This document shows, piece after piece, positions 5,218 to 63,367 of a stretch of 64,000 bases of DNA. Below the pieces are notes generated by a model that was given only the letters and a program-made list of their open reading frames with translations, made no database searches and was not told where the DNA came from. The stretch is from Linnemannia elongata (Eukaryota > Mortierellomycota > Mortierellomycetes > Mortierellales > Mortierellaceae). The stretch is taken from positions 372,001 through 436,000 of the forward strand of contig JAXBDG010000003.1 of assembly GCA_036320915.1 (NCBI GenBank), given 5' to 3'. Each line of letters opens with the position of its first letter. Position 1 is the stretch's first letter. The position numbers were made by a program, and so were the translations under genes.

Positions 5218-6094
5218 GGGTGATGGGCAGGCATAGCGAAAAAATTGCTCCAGGGGTTAAATTTATTGCTTGTATTCCTCTCTTCTTCTTTCCTCTCTCG
5301 TTTCTTGTCCTATTGTATGATCTGGTACACGCGAACCTTTTGGAGCCCTCAATATCTGGTTATCGGAGAGTCCTATTAGGCTCGGTATCAGTCAGAAGTA
5401 GTTTCTCCAAAAAAAAAAAAAACATTTGGCCCTTCGCGCCAATGGGTCAACGGCTGCCAAGTTCAAGGTAATACAACCCGCGAGATGCACAGCTTTTAGA
5501 CTCTAGTTTATATATCATGTGGGTGTTCAGCTGTCAGACTTTTGTGGTATCCCCCGCGGGATGCACAGCTTCTAGACTCTAGTTTATGTATCATGTAAGT
5601 GTTCAGCCATCAGAATTTTGTGATTTCCCTCGCGGGGAGGGGGAGAGGAAAAAGGGAGTGCATATTTTTCAGATCCAGACCCAAGGTAATAATGTATTCC
5701 GCAGGATGCGCAACCTTTTGCTATATCATGCGGCTTCCAGACCCCAGATAACATGACCCACAGAGCTAATAGTTTCCATATTCAAGGTGATACCCCCCGC
5801 GGGGTACTCCGCCTCAAAGGCACAGCACATCAGATCGCCTATCCTTATCGATCCAAATGCGAGAGGCTTGCTTGGAACAACGTTACACTTATTTGCAGGA
5901 CACAGAATCGCCATGAAATAGAGACAAATCTCGATCTACAAGATCTAGTCCCGATCCACAAGATCTAGTCCCGATCTACAAGATCTAGACTCGATCCATG
6001 ATAAGTTCGCTTGGCCATAGACAAGTATAAATACAACGAAATGTTGCTACCATCCCACAAACTCAACAACAACATCTCTCTCTCTCTCTCTCTC

Positions 6095-53605: not shown

Positions 53606-54183
53606 GTATGTTGATGAGTAGTTATTGTCTCTGGTTGTTGTTATATTGTTGTTGGTACTTGTTCGCGGTGACTGATGCTGTACAATGAGGTTGCTTCTGG
53701 TGCGGCTGGCAATTGGTGTTGTATTGATGATCGGTGTTAGATCGCTCTTGCGGGTGGCTGTTGTGTTGCTGTTATTGTGTGTGGAAACTTGGAGAGCTAA
53801 TGTTGGTAGGGTGGGAAGGCTTAGAGCCTTTTAGGCCTAGGAACTAATCTACCGTCTTTCACTAGAGGTAAAGACATGCCATCTAAGCTGAGCATCGAAC
53901 GGAAAAAATTTGTTACCATTCTTATCCGAAAAAGGAATCGATTGTCTACTACAAGTCATTCATGCAAGATGCATACATGGAAGATACATTCATGCAAGAT
54001 GCATGGTGGCAACAGGTGCAAAAGGTCATTGGCCATCTTAGAGTCGATTACTAACGGGTTAAAGGACAATGGACGCCATAATTACGTCACCGAAGTGTGT
54101 AATTGTAGCGCCCCCTATAACCCAAACTCGATCCATGTATTTGCTTATACACATATGGATCTAAAATTACTAAAATAGGAAAC
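53606..54183. other. Intergenic 3' flank of Fanzor gene A
   Basis: TTG/GTT-rich leader of the 417-aa protein gene (53630-53820), then a repeated CATTCATGCAAGATGCAT motif (about 53955-54003). A near-palindrome GATCCAT...ATGGATC occurs at 54130-54161, just after the gene A stop. No other gene seen. Confidence 0.5.
54055..54092 (-). promoter_or_regulatory. Conserved element 3' of Fanzor gene A
   Basis: On the gene A sense strand this reads CGGTGACGTAAT then TATGGCGTCCATTGTCC then TTTAACCCG, 92-129 nt beyond the stop codon. The same block, same orientation and similar distance, follows gene B at 63326-63367. TGACGTAA is also an ATF/CREB-type site, so an ordinary promoter element is the alternative. 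Confidence 0.6.
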
Positions 54184-57100
54184 CTATGCTACTGCTGGTC
54201 TTTTTGTTTGACTTCCATCCTCCCCCTCATCTGTTGCCTTTCGTTTGACCCCCTTCTGCCTACCAGACCCTCCGGGGCGAGGCCTAGAGCTGCGCTTGTC
54301 CTGCATCCATGGATAATGTCCATCACTGTCCTGGGGCTGGAGGTAGAGTGGCCGCTGTTGCTCGAGCAAGTGTCCTCGAACGGCATTGCAGATGTTATGG
54401 CCAGCCATGATGTCGCGGTGCATGTACTTTTGACACTTTGTACAATAAAGTCGGCGGAGGTCAACTTGGCCAACGAACTCTCTACAAGTAGGGCATTTCT
54501 TTGAGGTGTAAAACTCATTGACGCCAACGACGATGTAGCCAAGAGACCGCGCCTAAAAGTAAGGGGAAGTAGAGCAGAAAAAAAAGTTAATAAACAACTC
54601 TCCAAGCGTCAATAGCAAACACTTGGCTGTACTCTACACACTTACTTTCTGGACGAAGTACGACTGGAAGGACTCATGCAGTGATGATAATCTAGTCTTG
54701 GAAGAAAACTGTCCAAGACCCACGCCAATAACGACTTTGTTGTCTTCGTCCCTCTTGGCCCCAGTCGATCCTCCAATAAGCTGTAAGAGACGATTGGCGA
54801 TCAGTCTGTACTCTTCTGCTCGAGCCTTCCTAGCGTTCCACTTATGCTTCTTCAGAACCACATTGCCATAGAACGAGTCGAGATCGCCTTCCACTTCCTG
54901 CTCTCTCTGTATGTAATTGCTGATGCTCGTTTCTGGGCCACGGCAAGGAGGTAAACTGGTCTCGATATGGCTAATGGATGCTCCGCCCTCAACTGTCTGC
55001 TCTTTCCTACGCTCCAGCCATCGCCTGTGTTTGAAGGTAGACTGATATACAGCTTTCTGCTTGACGGCTAGGTTGAAAAACTTGGGCGACGGTTCCTTGG
55101 CCTCTTCATCCTCCTCTTTCTCGACACTCGACATCAACGACTCCCTGGTAGCACCATCAGGCTCTCGACCTTGTTCAACATTAGGCTGCTTGCGAGGGGG
55201 TAGAATTGCGCTTGCTCCGACTACAAACGCTTGGCCCAAGTCAATGCCGAGGATCTTGATGCTCTCGGGATCGCAACTCCAGTCGGGCAACATCCTGCTC
55301 GGTCGAAACGATATTCCTGATCTCGGTCAAAAAATAATCCGTGCCGCCAACGGTGGATGTCAGTCGACAAGGCAGTTTCTCCGCGGACAACCTTCTGTAC
55401 TTGACCGAATGGAGCTCATTCGACTTGAAAGCAAGCACTTGGAGCCGGAACCCGTCTGTCCGAATGGATCCTCGCAGAACGTAACCTTTCCCAGTGTAGG
55501 AGGCAGGTTCAAAGTTGTTTTCTCGGATATTCAGGAGATGACCCCTCATCTCCTCCAAGGGCATCAGAAAGGTGGATCTGGAATAGTTTTTAAGCTTTTT
55601 CCGTTGACCCTCTGAGTATCGGCCAATGTCTGTGAGTAGCCTGGTGATGAGAAGTCCGGGCGTTGTTGTTGACAGCCAAAGACCAACATCTGCTTGTGTG
55701 ACTTGATCGGAATACTGGATACTTTGAAAGTCCGGGTGGGCATACGACTGAAGCAAATGCTTCAAAGGAAGGCTCTGCCAAAAGATCTTGGATAGATCCA
55801 GCTCGGATAAAGTGATTAACTTGACATCAAAAGTCGACATTGGTACCAACGAGCGACGGCTCCCGCAAGCTCTGTTCAAGAGTATAAAATTCTCTATCGC
55901 AGATCTTTGGGGTGCAATGTAATCTCTCGCATTTAAAGGCAGAAGCTTCTTGCGCTTGAGGACTTCGATCTATTTTTTTTGGGAGAAATGTTGTGTTAAC
56001 TATTGGTCCATGGTGAAAGTTAATGGCTGAGTAGTAGTAGTTAAAGCGTTCAACTTCTTTTACCTTATTGCGGAGGTCGATCGCTCCATTCCTGTAGTGC
56101 TTTTTTAGTTCGACGGATAACTGCAACGCAGCAGATCTCAGAAACGAAGACCCAGCATACTCCTCTGTAGTTCTACCCTCAGTAAAGGCGGGCAAGAAGT
56201 CCTGCGCCTGTTCGATGAATCTTCGAACGTGCAAACCCATCCCGCTTTTTTTAGGAAGCTTGTTAGAGTATATAGCGGTAAGGAGCGACATGAGAAAAGA
56301 CAGCGCTTCGTTCTTCTTGTCGGTACTGTCGTCGACTTCTTCGAGTCCCTCGGGTTTGTCGGGCTCTTGGTCTGCTCCCTCCTTGCTGCATTCGACCAAG
56401 TCCTTGTTGGAGAAGGCAGGGCAAAGAATGTTGAGAAGTGTCCGGTCGACTTCACTAAGTATCTTGGTGGTATCGGTGGCGTTGGTTGTGTTGGTGGCAT
56501 CGTTGGTTTCGTTGTTGTCGGCGGCGTCGATGGTGTTGGTGGTATCGATGATATTAGTATCGGTGGCGTAGGTGGTGTTGGTGGTATCAATGGTGTTGTT
56601 GTTATCGGTGGGGTTGGTGGTATCGATGATGTTGTTATCGGTGGTGTTGGTGGTATCGATGATGTTGCTATCGGTGGCGTCGGGGGTGTTAGTGGTATCA
56701 AGGGTGTTGTTGCCAATGCCATCGCTGGCGTCGGTGGCATCGGCGGTGTTGCTGTTATCGTTTTCATCGATATTGTGCTCAGACAGTCGCTCGATGTATT
56801 GGCCGATGGCGCGTTGAGCGATTCGCTTTACGCGTGACGAGATCCGGGTAACGTTTCGGAGCGATGCTTTGATTTCTGTGAGATAGGTGTCTGCGTTTGC
56901 TTGGTCGATCCCATTGTTCAGAGCTCGAGTGGCGTTGGCGTTAATGGTACCGAGGTCAAGAGTCCGTGTGGGATGATCCCATTGCATCGCATCGACTAGT
57001 TCCCTTTTGTCCATCGTTTCCACATTACGCGGTGGTCTTTTGGTAGTGACTTTGGGAGGTTTGGTATTCGTTGATGGATCCAGTGGGGACTCTGGCAGCG

Positions 57101-58551
57101 ACTTCCACGGCTTCAGTTGGTATTGCTTCATGGACTCTGGAGGGTCATGCTTCTTTAGCTGAGAGCGGGTCTTGATGGCGTATCGTTGGCGGTACTTGTA
57201 CTGTCTCCCAGAATCATGGGGATTAGGTCGACGTTCCGGAGGGCGATCAACAGTCCAGTACCGGTTGAATACAGACGGTCGTTCCTCTGCCTGGTCACCA
57301 ACGAAAGATCTAAAAGGGGTTGGTTGACAATACGTTTTTGAAAGGTTAATGCCGTGCGTGATAGTACCTGGACAATGCTTGTTGTTATCAAATGATAATA
57401 CATATTCATATTTTACACTGATATTGGAGTGAGAAACCCTTACTTTTTGTTGCTCTCTAACTTGAGGCGAAGGTCCTTCAGTCTCTGGGTGATTCCCTGA
57501 GCGGCGTTATAGTTGAGTTCTTGTGGGGATGGGGCAGGATTTGTGGTGAACTCCTGAAGGACAAATATTTTTAGTGCTGCATCGAACTGGTCCTGCTTGG
57601 GGTATTTACAGGCAACGTCTTTGTGGGTCAAATAAACCCCTATCATTGCAGAGGGATCTGTGAATGTCACTAAACAAAAAGAACAGAAATTAAGAAAAGA
57701 ATGCGTTAAATGCAATGGACTTTTCACTTGTTGCAATGCTTCTACTAACAAAACAATAGGTATAGTGAGCATTTACCATCCTTTTCCAAAGACAGTATAA
57801 TCTTGAAATTGGTCGACACCCCCAGACGACTTATGTTGGAGGAGTAGTCGTTGCGACATACTACACCAAGAACTGTAAGGGCGGTCCTTGATATCTCCAA
57901 GTGTCTCAGCACCGTGGGCATATCGTACACGAGGTAACGGCCTCGTCCCAAAGGCCTCCATATAGTTTCAATAGAGGAATAGACGAGACTGTCGCTGTCT
58001 CCCGTGATAACAACATCGTGGGCTCCGCAATCGCTGGCAATTGCAATGTCTGCCTCTGAAACACATTCGACAACGCTCCATCCAAGTCCCTGCAAGAACT
58101 GAGCCAGGGCCCTTCGAGAGTCCATTAACCATACAAAGGAAGCGTTGAGGTGCTTGGCCAACTTCCTGAAATGTGGTTTCCGAAGTCTTCCTCCACTTCT
58201 GAAGATGTTCTCCATGTCGTTGATTGATGCCTCTGCTTTTGCCAAAGCATCTGCCCGTTTCATGTCCCGTAAGTCCCGAGTCCTACGCTTTTCCTCCGGT
58301 GATGGACCATCCACATAGAGAACAGCCGACGCTTGTGGAAACCCGCAGGATGCCAAGTGCTGCGCGACAATGGTGTTCGCCGTTGACGAATCATGGTTAC
58401 TGTAGGCACGACGGATGATTGAAAAGAATGATGCGAGAATATCCACGCGATAAAACGCATTCGAGGGAAGAGGATCTTGAGGGAACCGAGATAGTAGAGG
58501 GGCCTCGTACCCTTTGTCCCGGACGAAGGGCCATAGGTATGGAATGCCCAT
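54184..58551 (-). CDS. XPG/FEN1-Fanzor fusion nuclease, copy A (one frameshift)
   Basis: Five exons: 58551-57777, 57669-57444, 57309-56064, 55969-54646 and 54552-54184. All junctions close except for one internal frameshift in exon 4, near 55270-55300; about 1312 codons. The N-terminal module is a FEN1/XPG nuclease: MGIPYLWPF start, catalytic-type D37, D81 (LYVDG-P--K), E166/D168 (SEADIA), D185/D187 (GDSDSL) and a helix-3-turn-helix NDYSSNISRLG. The C-terminal module is Fanzor/TnpB-like: RTDGFRLQVL, RuvC-I GIDLGQAF, GVGLGQF, VNEFYTSKKCPTC...CTKC zinc ribbon, RuvC-III HRDIMAGHN and a basic KRK tail. Between them lies an Asp/Thr/Asn repeat insert (56470-56770) absent in copy B. The shift falls between EIRNI and RuvC-I. 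Compared with copy B this segment is 5 nt shorter. Either a pseudogene or a sequencing error. Confidence 0.85.
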
Positions 58552-59023
58552 CAGGGCTGAGGGACAACGCGCAGTTGGTATAAGAGTATAGGAGTGGTAT
58601 TGCGAGAAAGAAGGGTGAAAAAATGACGAAGAAGAGGGATGGGAGGAAAGAAGGATGGACTATTGATAAAGAGGAGGGGGTTGGGAGGTGAGAAGGGCGG
58701 AACAACGTTGATCTTGTTGGTGATAGCCCTGTCAGACCTACCGCATATTTATATAAAGTTGTTGGATGATGTGTTGCGATTCCCACCCCTCTTCTATTGT
58801 CTTGGTTACTGTTAGTTTGTGATTCTCCCTCTTCCATTGTCCTTGTTGCTACTAGTTTGTGATTCTCTCTTCTATTGTTGCTGTTAGTAAGGATAGGGAA
58901 GAATGGGCGCATAAACTCAATTTGGATGGATTTAAAGGGACAAGACAATGAGCATAAGTTTCCCACCCTTTCAACTTTATACATCTCCCAAACTGCTTTG
59001 ACTACTCATACCTTCTATCAGTC
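58552..59023. promoter_or_regulatory. Shared intergenic region of the head-to-head Fanzor genes
   Basis: The start codons of copies A and B are 472 bp apart. On the gene A side TATATAAATA (on the minus strand, about 58745-58756) is a good TATA box. On the gene B side CTTTATACA (about 58974) is a weaker one. Between them three imperfect tandem units of about 40 bp (58774-58890), each with TTCTATTGT or TTCCATTGT and GTTACTGTTAG-type sequence, form a candidate shared control element. Confidence 0.6.
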
Positions 59024-62000
59024 ATGGGGTGCCGATCCCTGTGGCGCTTTCTCAGCAAGAAGAAGCACAAACCTCCTCTCCGTTACCTTCGGTCACAACG
59101 AGATGAAGGAACATCCAACCAGTTTCGTGTCGACGTCCAAGCATGTCTCTTCTCAACGATTCGATACGCCTATACTGCTTCTCACTCCCTGGAAGCGGCC
59201 CACTCGGTCGTCGAAAAACGCATTAAGAAACTCGTCAAGAATCGCACGACTGCGGTGCTTTACTTTGATGGTGCCCCGGCATTGGAGAAACAACACACTC
59301 ATCGGCAGCGACAAGAGCTTCGGACCAAGGCCCTGGATAACACCAACAAGGCTGTCGATAACTTTGTCGAACGCGTCAACAACAACCAACGAATACGCAA
59401 GCAGCACTTCATTACTATCAACAAAAATCTCGCAACGGCATTTCGATGGGATCCGGTGGCAAAACAATCGCTAATAGCTTATCTCAGGGAGCGAGGATGG
59501 GACGTCGTTGAGTGCCCAACTGAGGCGGACACCAAGATCGCCGAGGATTGCCATCCTGGGGATGTCGTTATATCCTCCGACAGCGACTCCCTTGTCTACA
59601 GGAACATCTCGGTTGTCTGGCGCCCAATATCAGGAGGACGATTCTTGGTATACAACATCGACGAGGTCTTGTCAACGCTTAGTCTGAACAGGAATTAGTT
59701 GACTGTACTTGGCATAGTCTCCTACAACGATTACAACAAAAATATCTACGGTTTGGGATGCGCAACAAATTATGGAATCATCAAAGGCTTTACGGAAGAA
59801 GGTATATCAATTACGTTATCTACATTGCTAAGAATTTACTATTTATTACTTATATTAATTCTCATATCTCTTTTTAATTAGGAATGGAGGTGCCGCCCAT
59901 GGTGGAAGCGTATCCGACTGACAGTCGCGTCGAATTCAAGAACAGGGACAAGCTAAACTTCGCCACGTCGATCCAAGTCTTTGTTGGTGGAAGGCAAACA
60001 CCAGTTTCATTTACAACAAACAACAGCTCTGATGATCCGGGTATACTGACGGTAGAGAAGGTCAAGGCACGTTTTGCAGAGGCCCGTTCGATGTACAAGC
60101 AAAGAAAGAGCGAAGAGGAAATGGCCAGACAAGCGAGCAAAAGGTATAGATCAAAGTTGCAGTAGTCTTTACAGCCACCACACATGCCATACCCTACAGT
60201 TGATTCTAATAATCATTCTTTTGAAAATAGGTCTTCTTCGGACACGTCTACGCAAAGACACAAACCATCACAGCGCTTCAACAGATACCGGACTATCGAC
60301 CGGCCTCCGCCCGTGGAGCACAAGGATATCACGGATACTACAAAACGGAAGCACTCAACAGCCTTCGTTCATCGGCCCCGGTTTTCGGTCAAAGCCCGAA
60401 CAAGGAAAATCAAGCATGAGCCTCCGCCTGCCATGAAGCAGTATTCCTGGAAATCATGGAAAAAGAAGCCAGAAAGTCCAGCTGTCGACGCGATCGAAGC
60501 CAAACCCAAGCCTGAAGAGTTTGCCAAGTCGCCTTCTTTCAAGTCTCCGCGTCCTCTTGGACCCATGGACAAAAATCAGATCGTCCAAGAACTCGGAAGG
60601 GAACACCCCATGGCAATGCTCCGTGTTGGGACGCTGGCTAAGAACGTCAAGAGTGCACTGAAGGACGATGTCGCCATTGCCAAGGAAGCCATTGGTTGTT
60701 TGCAGGAAGCGGTTCATGAGGCATACGAGGTGAAGAGGCGGGCACAGAGGCTTGTAGGGATGTTTGTTGAGAGGATGGGCGCCGGTGACCTCCTTCCTAC
60801 TGACCGTGAGTATCTAGATCTTCTCTGCCCAAGGATCGTACCTGAAGAGTCCAACAAGAATGAAAACGTTGCACATGCCAACCCGGACGATGATGACGAC
60901 ATCAAAAACGATCGCCAGCAACATTTCCTGCTCGCGTTCTTGCGCTTCCTATACTCGGGTAACTATCCACGTGAACAAGGTGTCGGCCGATCCGTCAACG
61001 GATTCATTCAACGGTTGAAGGGATTGGGTTTGTTCGATCGTTTACGGCAGTCTCCTTTGCGCGACAGGTCGGCTTTACGCGAGACTACGACTTTTCCGCC
61101 CAACGAACTTGTGCGATCAGTATCTTCCCACCTGACGGTCGAACTCAAGAAGATGTACAATAATGGAACGCGAGAGATACAAAAGCAGGTACGAGTAAGC
61201 CCTATTGCCTTTGAAGACATTGCTTGTTTGGAACGTTCTGAAAGCAAATCTTTAACGTTATGTGTCCAATATTTCTACCCCTTTTCATCATAGCTGAAGG
61301 ATCAAAAGGTCAAGGACGAAGACTCGTTGAAAGGATATGACCTGGAGATTCATCAAGAGAAGACAGCTGTTGAGAACTTTCTTGAGTTTAACAGGATGAG
61401 TGGAAACACGCGCCGGATTGCCCCTATATCGTCGAGCAAGGATGGTTTTGTTTCGTTTTCGGAACGAGAGATTATCGGTTTGTTCTGGAAGAGACCCATG
61501 ATCAAGGCCAAGATTCTGGAGTTGGTAACGCCCGTGTTTCCTGGCTGTCTGGCATTGGACGATGTGACGACGATTTGGTTGCGCGACCAAGAACCAGGGT
61601 TCGTGATCAAGAGCCTGCTTTGTGATGTTGCTCCTGTTGGTCTGACGAGTCGACAGAGGGGCAAAGCAGGATATCGGGCCGCGATCAAGTTGATGACTAT
61701 TCCTGAAATCAAGGACCATCTCTCGACCATCCGCCAGCCAGACTTCGACCCAGGATCCTATGCCACGAAAGGATATCTTCTCCGAGGGTCTATTCGGACT
61801 AATGGCTTCAGTATTCAGCTAGCGGCTTTCAAGCTGAAGGAACTTCAAGCCGTTCGGTACAGGAGATTTCCAGAGGATCGTCTGCCATCTCGGTTGACGA
61901 CCACAGTGGGCGGATTGGACTATTGCTTGATGGAGATTCGGAATATTGCTCGGACCAAGGAAGACGTCATGGAATTGTGGCCAAATTGTGCGCCCGATCA

Positions 62001-63217
62001 GATCAAGATTTTATCTGTGGACTTAGGTCAAGCCTACGTTGTGGGAGCCTACGCCTCATTGCCGAATTCGACATGCGATACCATCAAGGGAACGAGCCAG
62101 AACGCCTTGACTGCCATGGATATATCGACCGTCTCGAATCTGGCCCCTGTGACCATGCTAAGCAGCTCACCTCAGCCTCAAGTGTTCTATAACCTGTCAG
62201 TCAAACAGAAGGCCGTCTCTCAACCAACTTTCAAGTTCCGGAGATGGACGGAGGATCAAAAGAAACTTGTTCCTGCGGGCGCGGCCAAGTCGGTACAGGA
62301 TATTGAGTCGGATTTGCCCCCTCTCCGAGGTCAGGATGCCAGTGTAGTGGATTATGTTGAGGAGATCCAAGTAGTGGAGGACCAATTGCAGGAATTCTAC
62401 AACGGCAGCAACATGCGATACCAGCGCCATAGTTTCGATGCCAGTCGCGCCCGTGAGGAAGAGTTCCGGACAATCGCGGATCGTCTGTTGAGTATGATTG
62501 GAGGTTCGGTCGGTGCAAAGAGAAGCGAGGACGACATGGTGGTCATTGCAATTGGGTTGGGGCAATTTGCGAGTCGGTCGGGACTATCTTCATTGCATGG
62601 AACTTTCTTTGCCTTCTTTGTGTGCCTGGTAGGTGCTTCATCATAACAGCATAGTCTTTTAGGAAAGGGCTTATTTCATTTATTAACTTGCCAAACATAT
62701 CATTACTATGTCTTTTTAGGCCCGTTCGCTTGGGTATATCGTTGTCGGAGTTAATGAATATTACTCTTCAAAGAAGTGTCCTCGCTGCCAGGCCTTTGTG
62801 GCGCAGGTTACAATCCGGAGATTGTTCTGCAAGGCCTGTAGTATGTACTTTCACAGGGACGAGATGGCCGCACATAACATGGCGAATGCAGTTCGCGGCC
62901 ACCTTCTGGACCAACAACGACCAGACTATTTGCACCCCATCGATGCTCAAGGCCGGTACCCTTGGAAGGAGGACCTCAGCAGCAGTGCAGATGGAGTTGG
63001 AAGCAGCACCAGCACCAGCACCCGACCCGACACCGATGCCAAGCCCAAGTCAACTCCAACCCGACAGCCCAGGAAGCGCAAGGCCACCGACAACACGCAA
63101 CCTCAATCAAGTTCAGCTCGACAGCCCAGGAAGCGCAAGGCGATCGATACCGCACAGCCTCTAGCAAATCCCACCCGGCAGTCCAGGAAGCGCAAGGCCG
63201 TGGAGGAGGCGGACTAA
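59024..63217 (+). CDS. XPG/FEN1-Fanzor fusion nuclease, copy B (one in-frame TAG)
   Basis: Five exons: 59024-59801, 59882-60143, 60231-61188, 61294-62628 and 62720-63217. They close to 1277 codons with intron positions matching copy A. Codon 225 (59696-59698) is TAG, inside the XPG module directly before LTVLG and the NDYNKNIYGLG motif. XPG residues are all present: D37, D82, E167/D169 and D186/D188. The Fanzor module has RTNGFSIQL, RuvC-I SVDLGQAY (D909), IGLGQF, VNEYYSSKKCPRC (E1124, C1131, C1134), CKAC (C1148, C1151) and RuvC-III HRDEMAAHN (D1158). The tail carries RQPRKRKA-type nuclear-localisation repeats three times. Translation would stop after a 224-residue XPG fragment unless the TAG is read through, an error, or polymorphic. 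The fused organisation is inferred from matching intron phases and from copy A. Confidence 0.85.
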
Positions 63218-63325
63218 GGGAGGATTGAGATTGGAACCAGCAACAGACTAGTTTTCATTTTTTTGAGTGTTGCACCCACTCTACACATTGTTGATTGAGG
63301 GCAGTAGGTGCCTCTAGGTTGCGTC

Positions 63326-63367
63326 CGGTGACGTAATTTATGCGCCCATTGTTCCTCTTTCCACCCG
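63326..63367 (+). promoter_or_regulatory. Conserved element 3' of Fanzor gene B / upstream of NDUFA13
   Basis: Reads CGGTGACGTAAT then TTATGCGCCCATTGTTCC then TCTTTCCACCCG, 109-150 nt after the gene B stop and 91-132 nt before the NDUFA13 ATG. The matching block after gene A is at 54055-54092. It may be the shared right end of a Fanzor unit or a promoter with an ATF/CREB-like site. Confidence 0.6.

Follow-up and report, generated by a model that had tools for sequence, protein, structure and literature searches.

A DNA transposon family of Mortierella-type fungi rather probably encodes one protein in which an XPG/FEN1-type nuclease is joined through a basic linker to a Fanzor1-type nuclease, acting by the mechanism set out below. 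Fanzors are eukaryotic RNA-guided DNA nucleases. Our computational analysis established the architecture in many copies and two families, the catalytic residues, the terminal inverted repeats (TIRs) with their 8-bp duplications, the motif ACGTCAC, and the right end of the element. Two copies, A and B, lie in a 64,000-nucleotide stretch of Linnemannia elongata DNA (contig JAXBDG010000003.1, positions 372,001 to 436,000), hereafter the window.

Two decayed copies in the window

Copies A and B are arranged head-to-head, are about 34% identical, and have five matching exons each, with XPG-like exons 1 and 2 followed by a long linker, a Fanzor module, and a zinc ribbon in the last exon (Table 1). 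A preliminary description of this DNA had proposed two genes that each join an XPG part to a Fanzor part, with exon joins that close in matching phases, and both points are borne out: intron phases are 1, 2, 0, and 0 in A and B alike, apart from the frameshift in A. That the two genes are whole, however, is excluded by damage that it did not report. Copy A loses its frame in exon 4, around 55281 and thus ahead of the RuvC-I Asp, and copy B has an in-frame TAG in exon 1 (59696-59698). The window pair are decayed copies, and neither encodes a full protein. An intronic position of the TAG was considered and rejected, as the spliced aligner chose no such intron and conserved XPG residues would be removed with it. 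The full acidic set and helix-3-turn-helix (H3TH) described for both genes hold for copy A but not for copy B, in which the last XPG Asp and the H3TH region lie beyond the TAG.

Profile searches agreed in part with the XPG assignment: copy B alone passed the Pfam cut-off for XPG_N (3.3e-6 for the segment ahead of the TAG), and XPG_I fell below its own in both copies (about 4e-4). The assignment of the C-terminal half to the Fanzor/TnpB group was confirmed by Pfam Cas12f1-like_TNB, over its cut-off in both last exons; the middle exons of A and B gave no Pfam match above a cut-off.

Table 1. Features of copies A and B, in window positions
Feature	Position	Strand	Content	Basis
Copy A exon 1	57777..58551	-	N-terminal and I regions of XPG; H3TH begins	spliced model
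Copy A exon 2	57444..57669	-	XPG part ends here	spliced model
Copy A exon 3	56064..57309	-	basic linker, low-complexity stretch, Fanzor fold begins	spliced model
Copy A exon 4	54646..55969	-	Fanzor REC/WED/RuvC part, frameshift near 55281	spliced model
Copy A exon 5	54184..54552	-	RuvC Glu, zinc ribbon (TNB), RuvC Asp, tail	passes PF07282 cut-off, E 6.2e-12
Hairpin TGTAT/ATACA	54136..54151	-	3' noncoding part of copy A	
Conserved right-end motif, copy A	54079..54092	-	CGGTGACGTAATTA	right-end comparison
Right TIR, copy A element	54056..54077	-		TIR pattern match C23:426060
Element with copy B	58891..63362	+	left end GGATAGGG	similarity limits and end sequences; right limit by eye
Copy B exon 1	59024..59801	+	XPG domain, in-frame TAG at 59696-59698	spliced model
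Copy B exon 2	59882..60143	+	XPG part ends here	spliced model
Copy B exon 3	60231..61188	+	linker, then start of Fanzor fold	spliced model
Copy B exon 4	61294..62628	+	Fanzor REC/WED/RuvC part, open	spliced model
Copy B exon 5	62720..63217	+	RuvC Glu, zinc ribbon (TNB), RuvC Asp, basic tail, stop	passes PF07282 cut-off, E 1.1e-10
Hairpin GAGTG/CACTC	63265..63281	+	candidate omega-RNA, 3' noncoding part of copy B	
Conserved right-end motif, copy B	63326..63350	+	CGGTGACGTAATTT.TGCGCC	right-end comparison

The left end of the copy A element was not located. The copy B element has a near-twin, C1:1161892, with 97.6% identity. Because each of the two carries a stop in XPG and their XPG dN/dS appears relaxed (1.37, from few changes, versus 0.16 to 0.29 elsewhere), the XPG half may be dispensable or supplied in trans.

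Evidence for one gene across the genome and in related fungi

At 34 of the 39 XPG-like loci of this genome, a TNB match lies 2.9 to 4.3 kb downstream on the same strand, a recurrence that excludes chance or an artefact of the first reading. The 32 copies examined include 21 that are fully covered, 11 of which are open throughout. Introns 2 to 4 have phases 2, 0, and 0 at all 21 loci; the aligner split exon 3 by an extra intron at nine loci and exon 4 at one, which was taken as artefactual, and P0040, the one public model traced to this assembly, reads through the extra intron of copy C31:2476477. The XPG part has a dN/dS of 0.12 to 0.18 in three of five pairs excluding copy B (the only three for which it was computable), and the block of exon 3 ahead of its first ATG is likewise conserved (0.19 to 0.61 in four pairs). 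Purifying selection on both halves, as estimated from these substitutions, supports a single polypeptide.

The domain pair that the preliminary description reported from two copies is thus found at 34 loci of this genome, in models from other species, and in a second family. In other species, P0001, P0004, P0005, P0007, P0011, and P0013 run as single-protein models through exons 1 to 5. The second, divergent family has a colinear domain order (E 7.6e-52 over 995 columns) and intron phases matching those of family 1; for intron 3 of L072 a lower-scoring donor was chosen for its fit to the family 1 position, and the best-scoring candidate has the same phase. Since intron phases, purifying selection, public models, and the second family agree, the prediction of one gene with an XPG/FEN1-type nuclease and a Fanzor in one polypeptide is supported.

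Fanzor elements lacking XPG were rejected as a natural class, as L070 and L071 look truncated where about 2.5 kb upstream was checked: L070 runs upstream into a long retrotransposon-like ORF, and L071 showed neither XPG nor a left end within about 2.5 kb. No XPG was recognised by eye at the subtelomeric loci L077 and L078, and none of 43 pattern matches in viral contigs was confirmed as a relative.

Two predicted nuclease folds

Structure prediction supported both assignments of the preliminary description. The N-terminal model (AF2) reached a pLDDT of 89.1, and the 50 matches listed by Foldseek were all FEN1, EXO1, XPG, Rad2, GEN1, or T5 D15 (best E 2.5e-7). Profile matches in the PDB were to Rad2, FEN1, and XPG (E 2e-6 to 2.5e-3), with about 15% identity between the XPG half and solved structures. 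The seven XPG acidic residues are found in family 1, where D81, E166, D168, D185, D187, and D235 (copy A numbering) vary little or not at all across 21 rows; the first XPG Asp is present in copy A and falls outside several N-terminally incomplete rows. In family 2, Gln replaces the first Glu, so that the seven-residue set is incomplete. According to these models, the N and I regions are predicted to adopt the XPG/FEN1 (Rad2) fold.

The C-terminal half matches the Fanzor pattern D-X(125,275)-[TS]-[TS]-X-X-[C4 zinc finger]-X(5,50)-RD, represented in P0005 by D969, T1215 and S1216, C1219, C1222, C1236 and C1239, and R1245 and D1246; these residues are mostly invariant in 11 rows, with single cysteines missing in a few other rows. 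The model of this module is of low confidence (pLDDT 60.5). Foldseek placed Cas12f in the first rows, with Fanzor1 structures aligning over more of the module, and structure alignment recovered the Fanzor1 fold (REC, WED, RuvC, and TNB). The first 190 or so residues of the model, which correspond to exon 3, lie inside the aligned range of Fanzor1 structures. The modeled C-terminal module is nearest to Fanzor1.

Element ends, target site, and candidate guide RNA

The TIRs are about 20 bp long, and 7 of the 10 copies with both ends are flanked by a perfect 8-bp target duplication; one more shows a duplication after a 1-base shift and two have none. One case of nested copies was seen (C31:21973/24921). 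Two bases to the left of the 8-bp duplication, at -20, ACGTCAC occurs exactly in 9 of 21 left flanks and with at least five of seven bases in 14 (shuffles: mean 0.3, maximum 4 in 2000), and seven of the 21 lack it at this exact place. These flanks exclude A, B, C1:1161892, and elements without a located left end, and were counted after removal of spurious pattern hits (C1_1161892 position 5937 and C8_302353 position 671). None of 15 right flanks checked carried the motif. By eye, it is absent from the left flank of copy B, and that of C1:1161892 has ACGTCAT with the spacing of the family. ACGTCAC thus occupies the position expected of a Fanzor target motif, which is suggestive.

Among 12 representatives, the right-end motif is conserved in 10 and the hairpin is present in 8, the other 4 failing a strict hairpin test; single-sequence folding energy was not significant in the 12 (z -1.86 to +0.61). 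The right end, which also carries TGACGTMA, similar to ACGTCAC, is a candidate guide (omega) RNA. In four elements, no further long ORF could be recognised on the coding strand. Some copies have internal deletions or consist of ends only (L067/L076 and L068), L076 being an internally deleted relative, and for the TIR-like matches L074 and L075 no transposase-bearing parent was recognised.

Proposed mechanism and alternatives

In the mechanism that we favour, the right end would be transcribed as an omega-RNA whose guide consists of the duplicated 8 bp and the right flank. The Fanzor half would take ACGTCACNN as its target-adjacent motif (TAM) and cut empty sites, after which repair would copy or keep the element. 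Tethered at the cut, the XPG half would remove 5' flaps or open branched ends arising from the R-loop, a staggered cut, or element excision. A stronger version, which we regard as unlikely, is a self-contained two-nuclease RNA-guided transposon working without a DDE transposase, in which ACGTCAC sites are cut under the guidance of an RNA carrying the 8-bp duplication and flank, branched ends are processed by the protein itself, and the element is copied in; because its right end has TGACGTMA, similar to ACGTCAC, copies could then target one another and nest, as in the case at C31:21973/24921.

The insertion features may have another origin. TIRs and 8-bp duplications are typical of DDE transposases, and such an enzyme acting in trans could have produced both ACGTCAC and the duplication, leaving the fusion protein a role in retention or elsewhere, with a different TAM. 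We consider this a possibility of some weight. Internally deleted and end-only copies fit it, as do transposase-less MuDr-like elements with Fanzor1 in Rhizopus, Phycomyces, and Mucor (PMC3627910) and the known Fanzor1 TAMs, which at 3 to 4 nt (PMC11423790) are much shorter than ACGTCAC. It is countered by the one-sided occurrence of ACGTCAC at the place expected of a TAM and by the lack of a recognised matching transposase in L074 and L075.

That the transposon instead holds two separate genes, XPG-like and then Fanzor, joined by introns that were wrongly predicted or belong to a minor splice variant, is very unlikely in our view. P0040 does end in intron 3, after exon 3 (731 aa), and at least P0046 and P0048, together with the partial P0043, terminate near the end of exon 3; P0040 nonetheless joins XPG to exon 3, the start of the Fanzor fold, and the constant phases, the conservation ahead of the first ATG of exon 3, the models spanning exons 1 to 5, and the order and phases shared by the second family all argue for a fusion. 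It is similarly improbable that the XPG half has lost its catalysis and serves only to bind DNA structures, helping the Fanzor reach branched DNA: the Gln of family 2 and the stops tolerated by the B-type pair would agree with this, whereas the near-invariance of the six acidic positions in family 1 speaks against it.

A natural fusion that is repeatedly amplified, evolves under selection, and recurs in two divergent families points to processing of DNA ends after RNA-guided cutting, a step made testable by mutating each active site. The one-sided ACGTCAC is a concrete TAM prediction, and the fusion a possible two-activity scaffold for genome editing.

Comparison with known systems

The preliminary description knew of no XPG-Fanzor fusion, and a two-nuclease protein joining XPG, FEN1, or Rad2 to a Fanzor was likewise not found described in the openly readable literature searched. 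The transposon setting reported here, with TIRs, 8-bp duplications, the ACGTCAC target motif, and a candidate guide RNA, adds to the preliminary description. Compared with the Fanzor1 proteins SpuFz1, GtFz1, and PpFz1, the fungal fusion adds an N-terminal XPG domain and a long linker, giving 1200 to 1370 aa; in PpFz1 the aligned part begins at residue 128, which leaves too little room ahead for an XPG domain. The Mucorales MuDr-like elements ROr-4, PBl-3, and MCi-4 resemble the XPG-Fanzor elements in having a Fanzor gene inside inverted repeats, no transposase gene, and a duplication of similar length (9 bp versus 8 bp); the available part of PMC3627910 mentions no XPG fusion, the comparison being one of published descriptions. 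The XPG half shares with FEN1, EXO1, and XPG (Rad2) the fold, the PDB profile match, the acidic residues, and the H3TH, but sits in a transposon protein fused to a Fanzor. The Fanzor module has RuvC and TNB in common with Cas12f and TnpB, yet is much larger, eukaryotic, and intron-bearing.

Two XPG-Fanzor genes in the window and their relatives

Two related genes, copy A and copy B, lie head to head at 54184-63217 of the window. The preliminary description had presented them as paralogous fusions of a FEN1/XPG-type flap nuclease (XPG) to a Fanzor. Their matching five-exon structures, with XPG and zinc-ribbon exons, are consistent with this architecture. By BLASTP, the products are ~34% identical in two aligned stretches, corresponding to the XPG part up to the linker and to the front of the Fanzor part. 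In profile searches, the last exons encode a TnpB/Cas12f-type zinc ribbon (TNB) above the Pfam cut-off (6.2e-12 in copy A and 1.1e-10 in copy B), whereas the first exons are weak matches to the XPG family: XPG_N exceeded the cut-off in copy B only, and XPG_I, at ~4e-4, stayed under it in both. The middle exons of both copies gave no Pfam match above the cut-off. However, both genes are broken, which the preliminary description had missed: copy B carries an in-frame TAG at 59696, upstream of the helix-3-turn-helix region, and copy A a frame change at ~55281, just ahead of the RuvC-I aspartate. Fully open relatives are present elsewhere in the genome.

Coordinates of the window genes, a shared 8-bp word and the second-family loci
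Feature	Coordinates	Strand	Remarks
Copy A exons	58551-57777, 57669-57444, 57309-56064, 55969-54646, 54552-54184	-	spliced model; exons match those of copy B
Copy B exons	59024-59801, 59882-60143, 60231-61188, 61294-62628, 62720-63217	+	exon joins in phases 1, 2, 0, 0
GTTAGTAA occurrences	54046-54058 and 58883-58898 of the window		not accounted for as a normal duplication
Second-family locus L072	C9:872535-876399		
Second-family locus L073	C11:31504-35392		
Second-family locus	C12:1850125-1854094		
Second-family locus	C12:1106959-1112020		

Used as queries against the window's genome (51.1 Mb, 32 contigs), the Fanzor and XPG exons gave 68 and 40 match rows, respectively, and merging two rows from one locus left 39 XPG loci. 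At 34 of these 39, a TNB match follows on the same strand 2.9-4.3 kb downstream, which uses 34 of the 54 TNB matches; five XPG loci (two of them weak matches) have no downstream TNB, and 20 TNB matches have no XPG. Thirty-two loci were spliced against copy B. The gene was covered in 21, the remaining 11 being only partly covered or truncated, and 11 of the 21 contain neither stop nor frameshift, one of them without the first 29 residues. Since copies of one subfamily are up to 99.96% identical across 4.7 kb, amplification was recent. Seven of the 20 XPG-less TNB matches lie within ~15 kb of a contig end (C2:8289, C3:12111, C6:6338, C32:6152, C9:1447301, C27:2931583, and C31:2724596). Two XPG-less matches near contig ends, L077 and L078, adjoin long leucine-rich ORFs, and no XPG was recognised there.

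Support for a single polypeptide

The exon joins on which the fusion had been proposed close in the same phases in copies A and B, and phases 2, 0, 0 of introns 2-4 hold in all 21 complete loci. Intron 1 is in phase 1 in 17 of the 21; the aligner put it in phase 0 in one subfamily of four, for which P0040, a public gene model traced to this assembly, has the phase-1 join. Upstream of its first ATG, exon 3 starts with a conserved block that includes NRYRTxESP and RYSFKxR, with dN/dS values of 0.61, 0.46, 0.28, and 0.19 in four pairs. Of five pairs that exclude copy B, three gave ratios of 0.17, 0.18, and 0.12 for the XPG exons (the other two being saturated and not computable); the main Fanzor exon gave 0.10-0.57. 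In addition, public gene models from other species hold both parts within one protein. Two of them, P0004 and P0008, are annotated with both PF00867 and PF07282, XPG_I of P0004 falling slightly under the cut-off when rescanned. A strict regular expression, which overlooks some proteins whose motif residues vary, among them P0001 and P0011, found both motifs in 11 of 50 fetched proteins, many of the others being partial or shorter. The intron phases, the exon-3 block, the dN/dS values, and the public models support one polypeptide. Against it, P0040 (the contig 31 copy) is identical to one open copy over exons 1-3, then ends inside intron 3 at 731 aa, and P0046 and P0048 end close to the same place. 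Even so, P0040 links XPG to the beginning of the Fanzor fold.

A second XPG-Fanzor family

At the loci of a second family in the same genome, four weak XPG matches (C9:875866, C11:34799, C12:1853642, and C12:1106959) each have a TNB match 3.3-4.3 kb downstream. The C9 locus has an open model of 1374 aa with phases 0, 2, 0, 0, the last three matching family 1, and 10 homologues belong to Linnemannia, Entomortierella, Dissophora, and Podila. The profile of 11 family-1 proteins aligns colinearly with that of 7 family-2 proteins from the XPG part through the Fanzor part (probability 100, E 7.6e-52, 995 columns, 19% identity); the first, catalytic Glu of the XPG I region is Gln in family 2. Because the domain order is colinear in both, the architecture appears to be older than the split of the families. 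All proteins from the three homologue searches, each of which scored only ~8000 candidates, carry Mortierella-type fungal names. The domain pair, which the preliminary description had proposed to look for in such fungi, is present there in public single-protein models and in this second family.

Some Linnemannia hyalina models differ. P0031 and P0032 are listed with a piggyBac transposase domain before a family-2 Fanzor, only partly covered in P0031, and could reflect insertion, merged gene models, or a genuine fusion. In P0024, a Crinkler N-terminal domain comes after a TNB, and P0021 has an N-terminus other than XPG ahead of the Fanzor part; these are possibly gene models merged after insertion.

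Element ends, target motif, and candidate omega-RNA

Similarity among copies stops sharply at GGSTGCAGGACAATGGACGCC on the left and GGCGCCAATTGTCCTGCAGCC on the right in the best-represented subfamilies. An identical 8-bp target-site duplication was found in 7 of the 10 copies with both ends and in one more after a one-base shift, and none was found in two. Comparison of 21 left flanks (18 from elements plus loci L067-L069) revealed ACGTCAC two bases ahead of the duplication, at -20 to -14 relative to TGCAGG. It is exact in nine flanks, and at least five of its seven bases are present in 14, compared to a mean of 0.3 and a maximum of 4 in 2000 trials with shuffled flanks; as the consensus was derived from the tested flanks, this shows that they are non-random, not that the exact word had been predicted beforehand. 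Seven flanks fall short of five bases at the exact place, one of which (L068) has the exact motif one base off, and comparable conservation was absent from 15 right flanks. If the guide consists of the duplication and the right flank, ACGTCAC would occupy the position of a target-adjacent motif (TAM). The Fanzor1 TAMs named in a published study (CATA, TTAA, and ATN; PMC11423790) are shorter.

Near the right end, CGGTGACGTNRTTT occurs in 10 of 12 representatives with at most two mismatches, and all 12 carry GGTGAC without variation. The right-end motif includes TGACGTCA in three and mostly TGACGTAA in the others, both similar to the target motif, and the copy at C31:24921 is inserted in the right end of a neighbouring element at regular spacing. 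In eight representatives, a perfect 5-bp hairpin with a 6- to 8-nt loop starts 57-62 nt upstream of the motif; it has five different stems among the eight, and shuffled versions of those eight yield a hairpin in 4-17% of trials. Of the four that fail this criterion, inspection by eye shows a longer hairpin closer to the end in two, and in the other two one that is shorter or displaced. The folding energy of the right ends was not significant (z -1.86 to +0.61). Motif and hairpin together are a candidate for the omega-RNA, the guide RNA of a Fanzor, as a lead rather than proof.

Elements in tandem occur at two places: at C31:20473-25700, the copy at C31:24921 sits in its neighbour's right end with the usual motif spacing, and at C4:909802-915965, one lies directly behind the end of its neighbour. 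In the window, the 8 bp GTTAGTAA is found to the right of copy A's right end, in the direction of A, and immediately left of copy B's left end.

Mobilisation and proposed mechanism

Four elements were inspected on the coding strand, and in none was a further long ORF recognised. Since Fanzor1 is described in MuDr-like elements of Rhizopus, Phycomyces, and Mucor without their own transposase (PMC3627910), the elements here may likewise be mobilised in trans. Two copies, C1:4505672 (L067/L076) and C9:207584 (L068), have the usual left end and ACGTCAC flank with no detectable XPG gene, which suggests mobilisation in trans. L067/L076 has an internal deletion that left a zinc-ribbon remnant.

A search of the open-licence literature found no paper treating Fanzor together with XPG, and XPG-Fanzor proteins are already in public databases, mostly annotated as hypothetical. 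Fanzor transposon proteins themselves are known; what appears to be new is a second, structure-specific nuclease domain predicted on one. The protein domains and residues, the transposon frame, and the target motif were established computationally. In the mechanism that we consider most likely, the fusion protein would bind RNA made from the element's right end and recognise ACGTCACNN. RuvC would cut matching empty sites, repair would then keep or spread the element, and the XPG half could remove flaps or open branched ends at the cut site. Copy B and its 97.6% identical relative at C1:1161892 carry a different stop in each XPG part. The XPG dN/dS of this pair, 1.37 from few changes, looks relaxed, and that of the other parts is 0.16-0.29; XPG may be dispensable, or supplied in trans, in at least one lineage.
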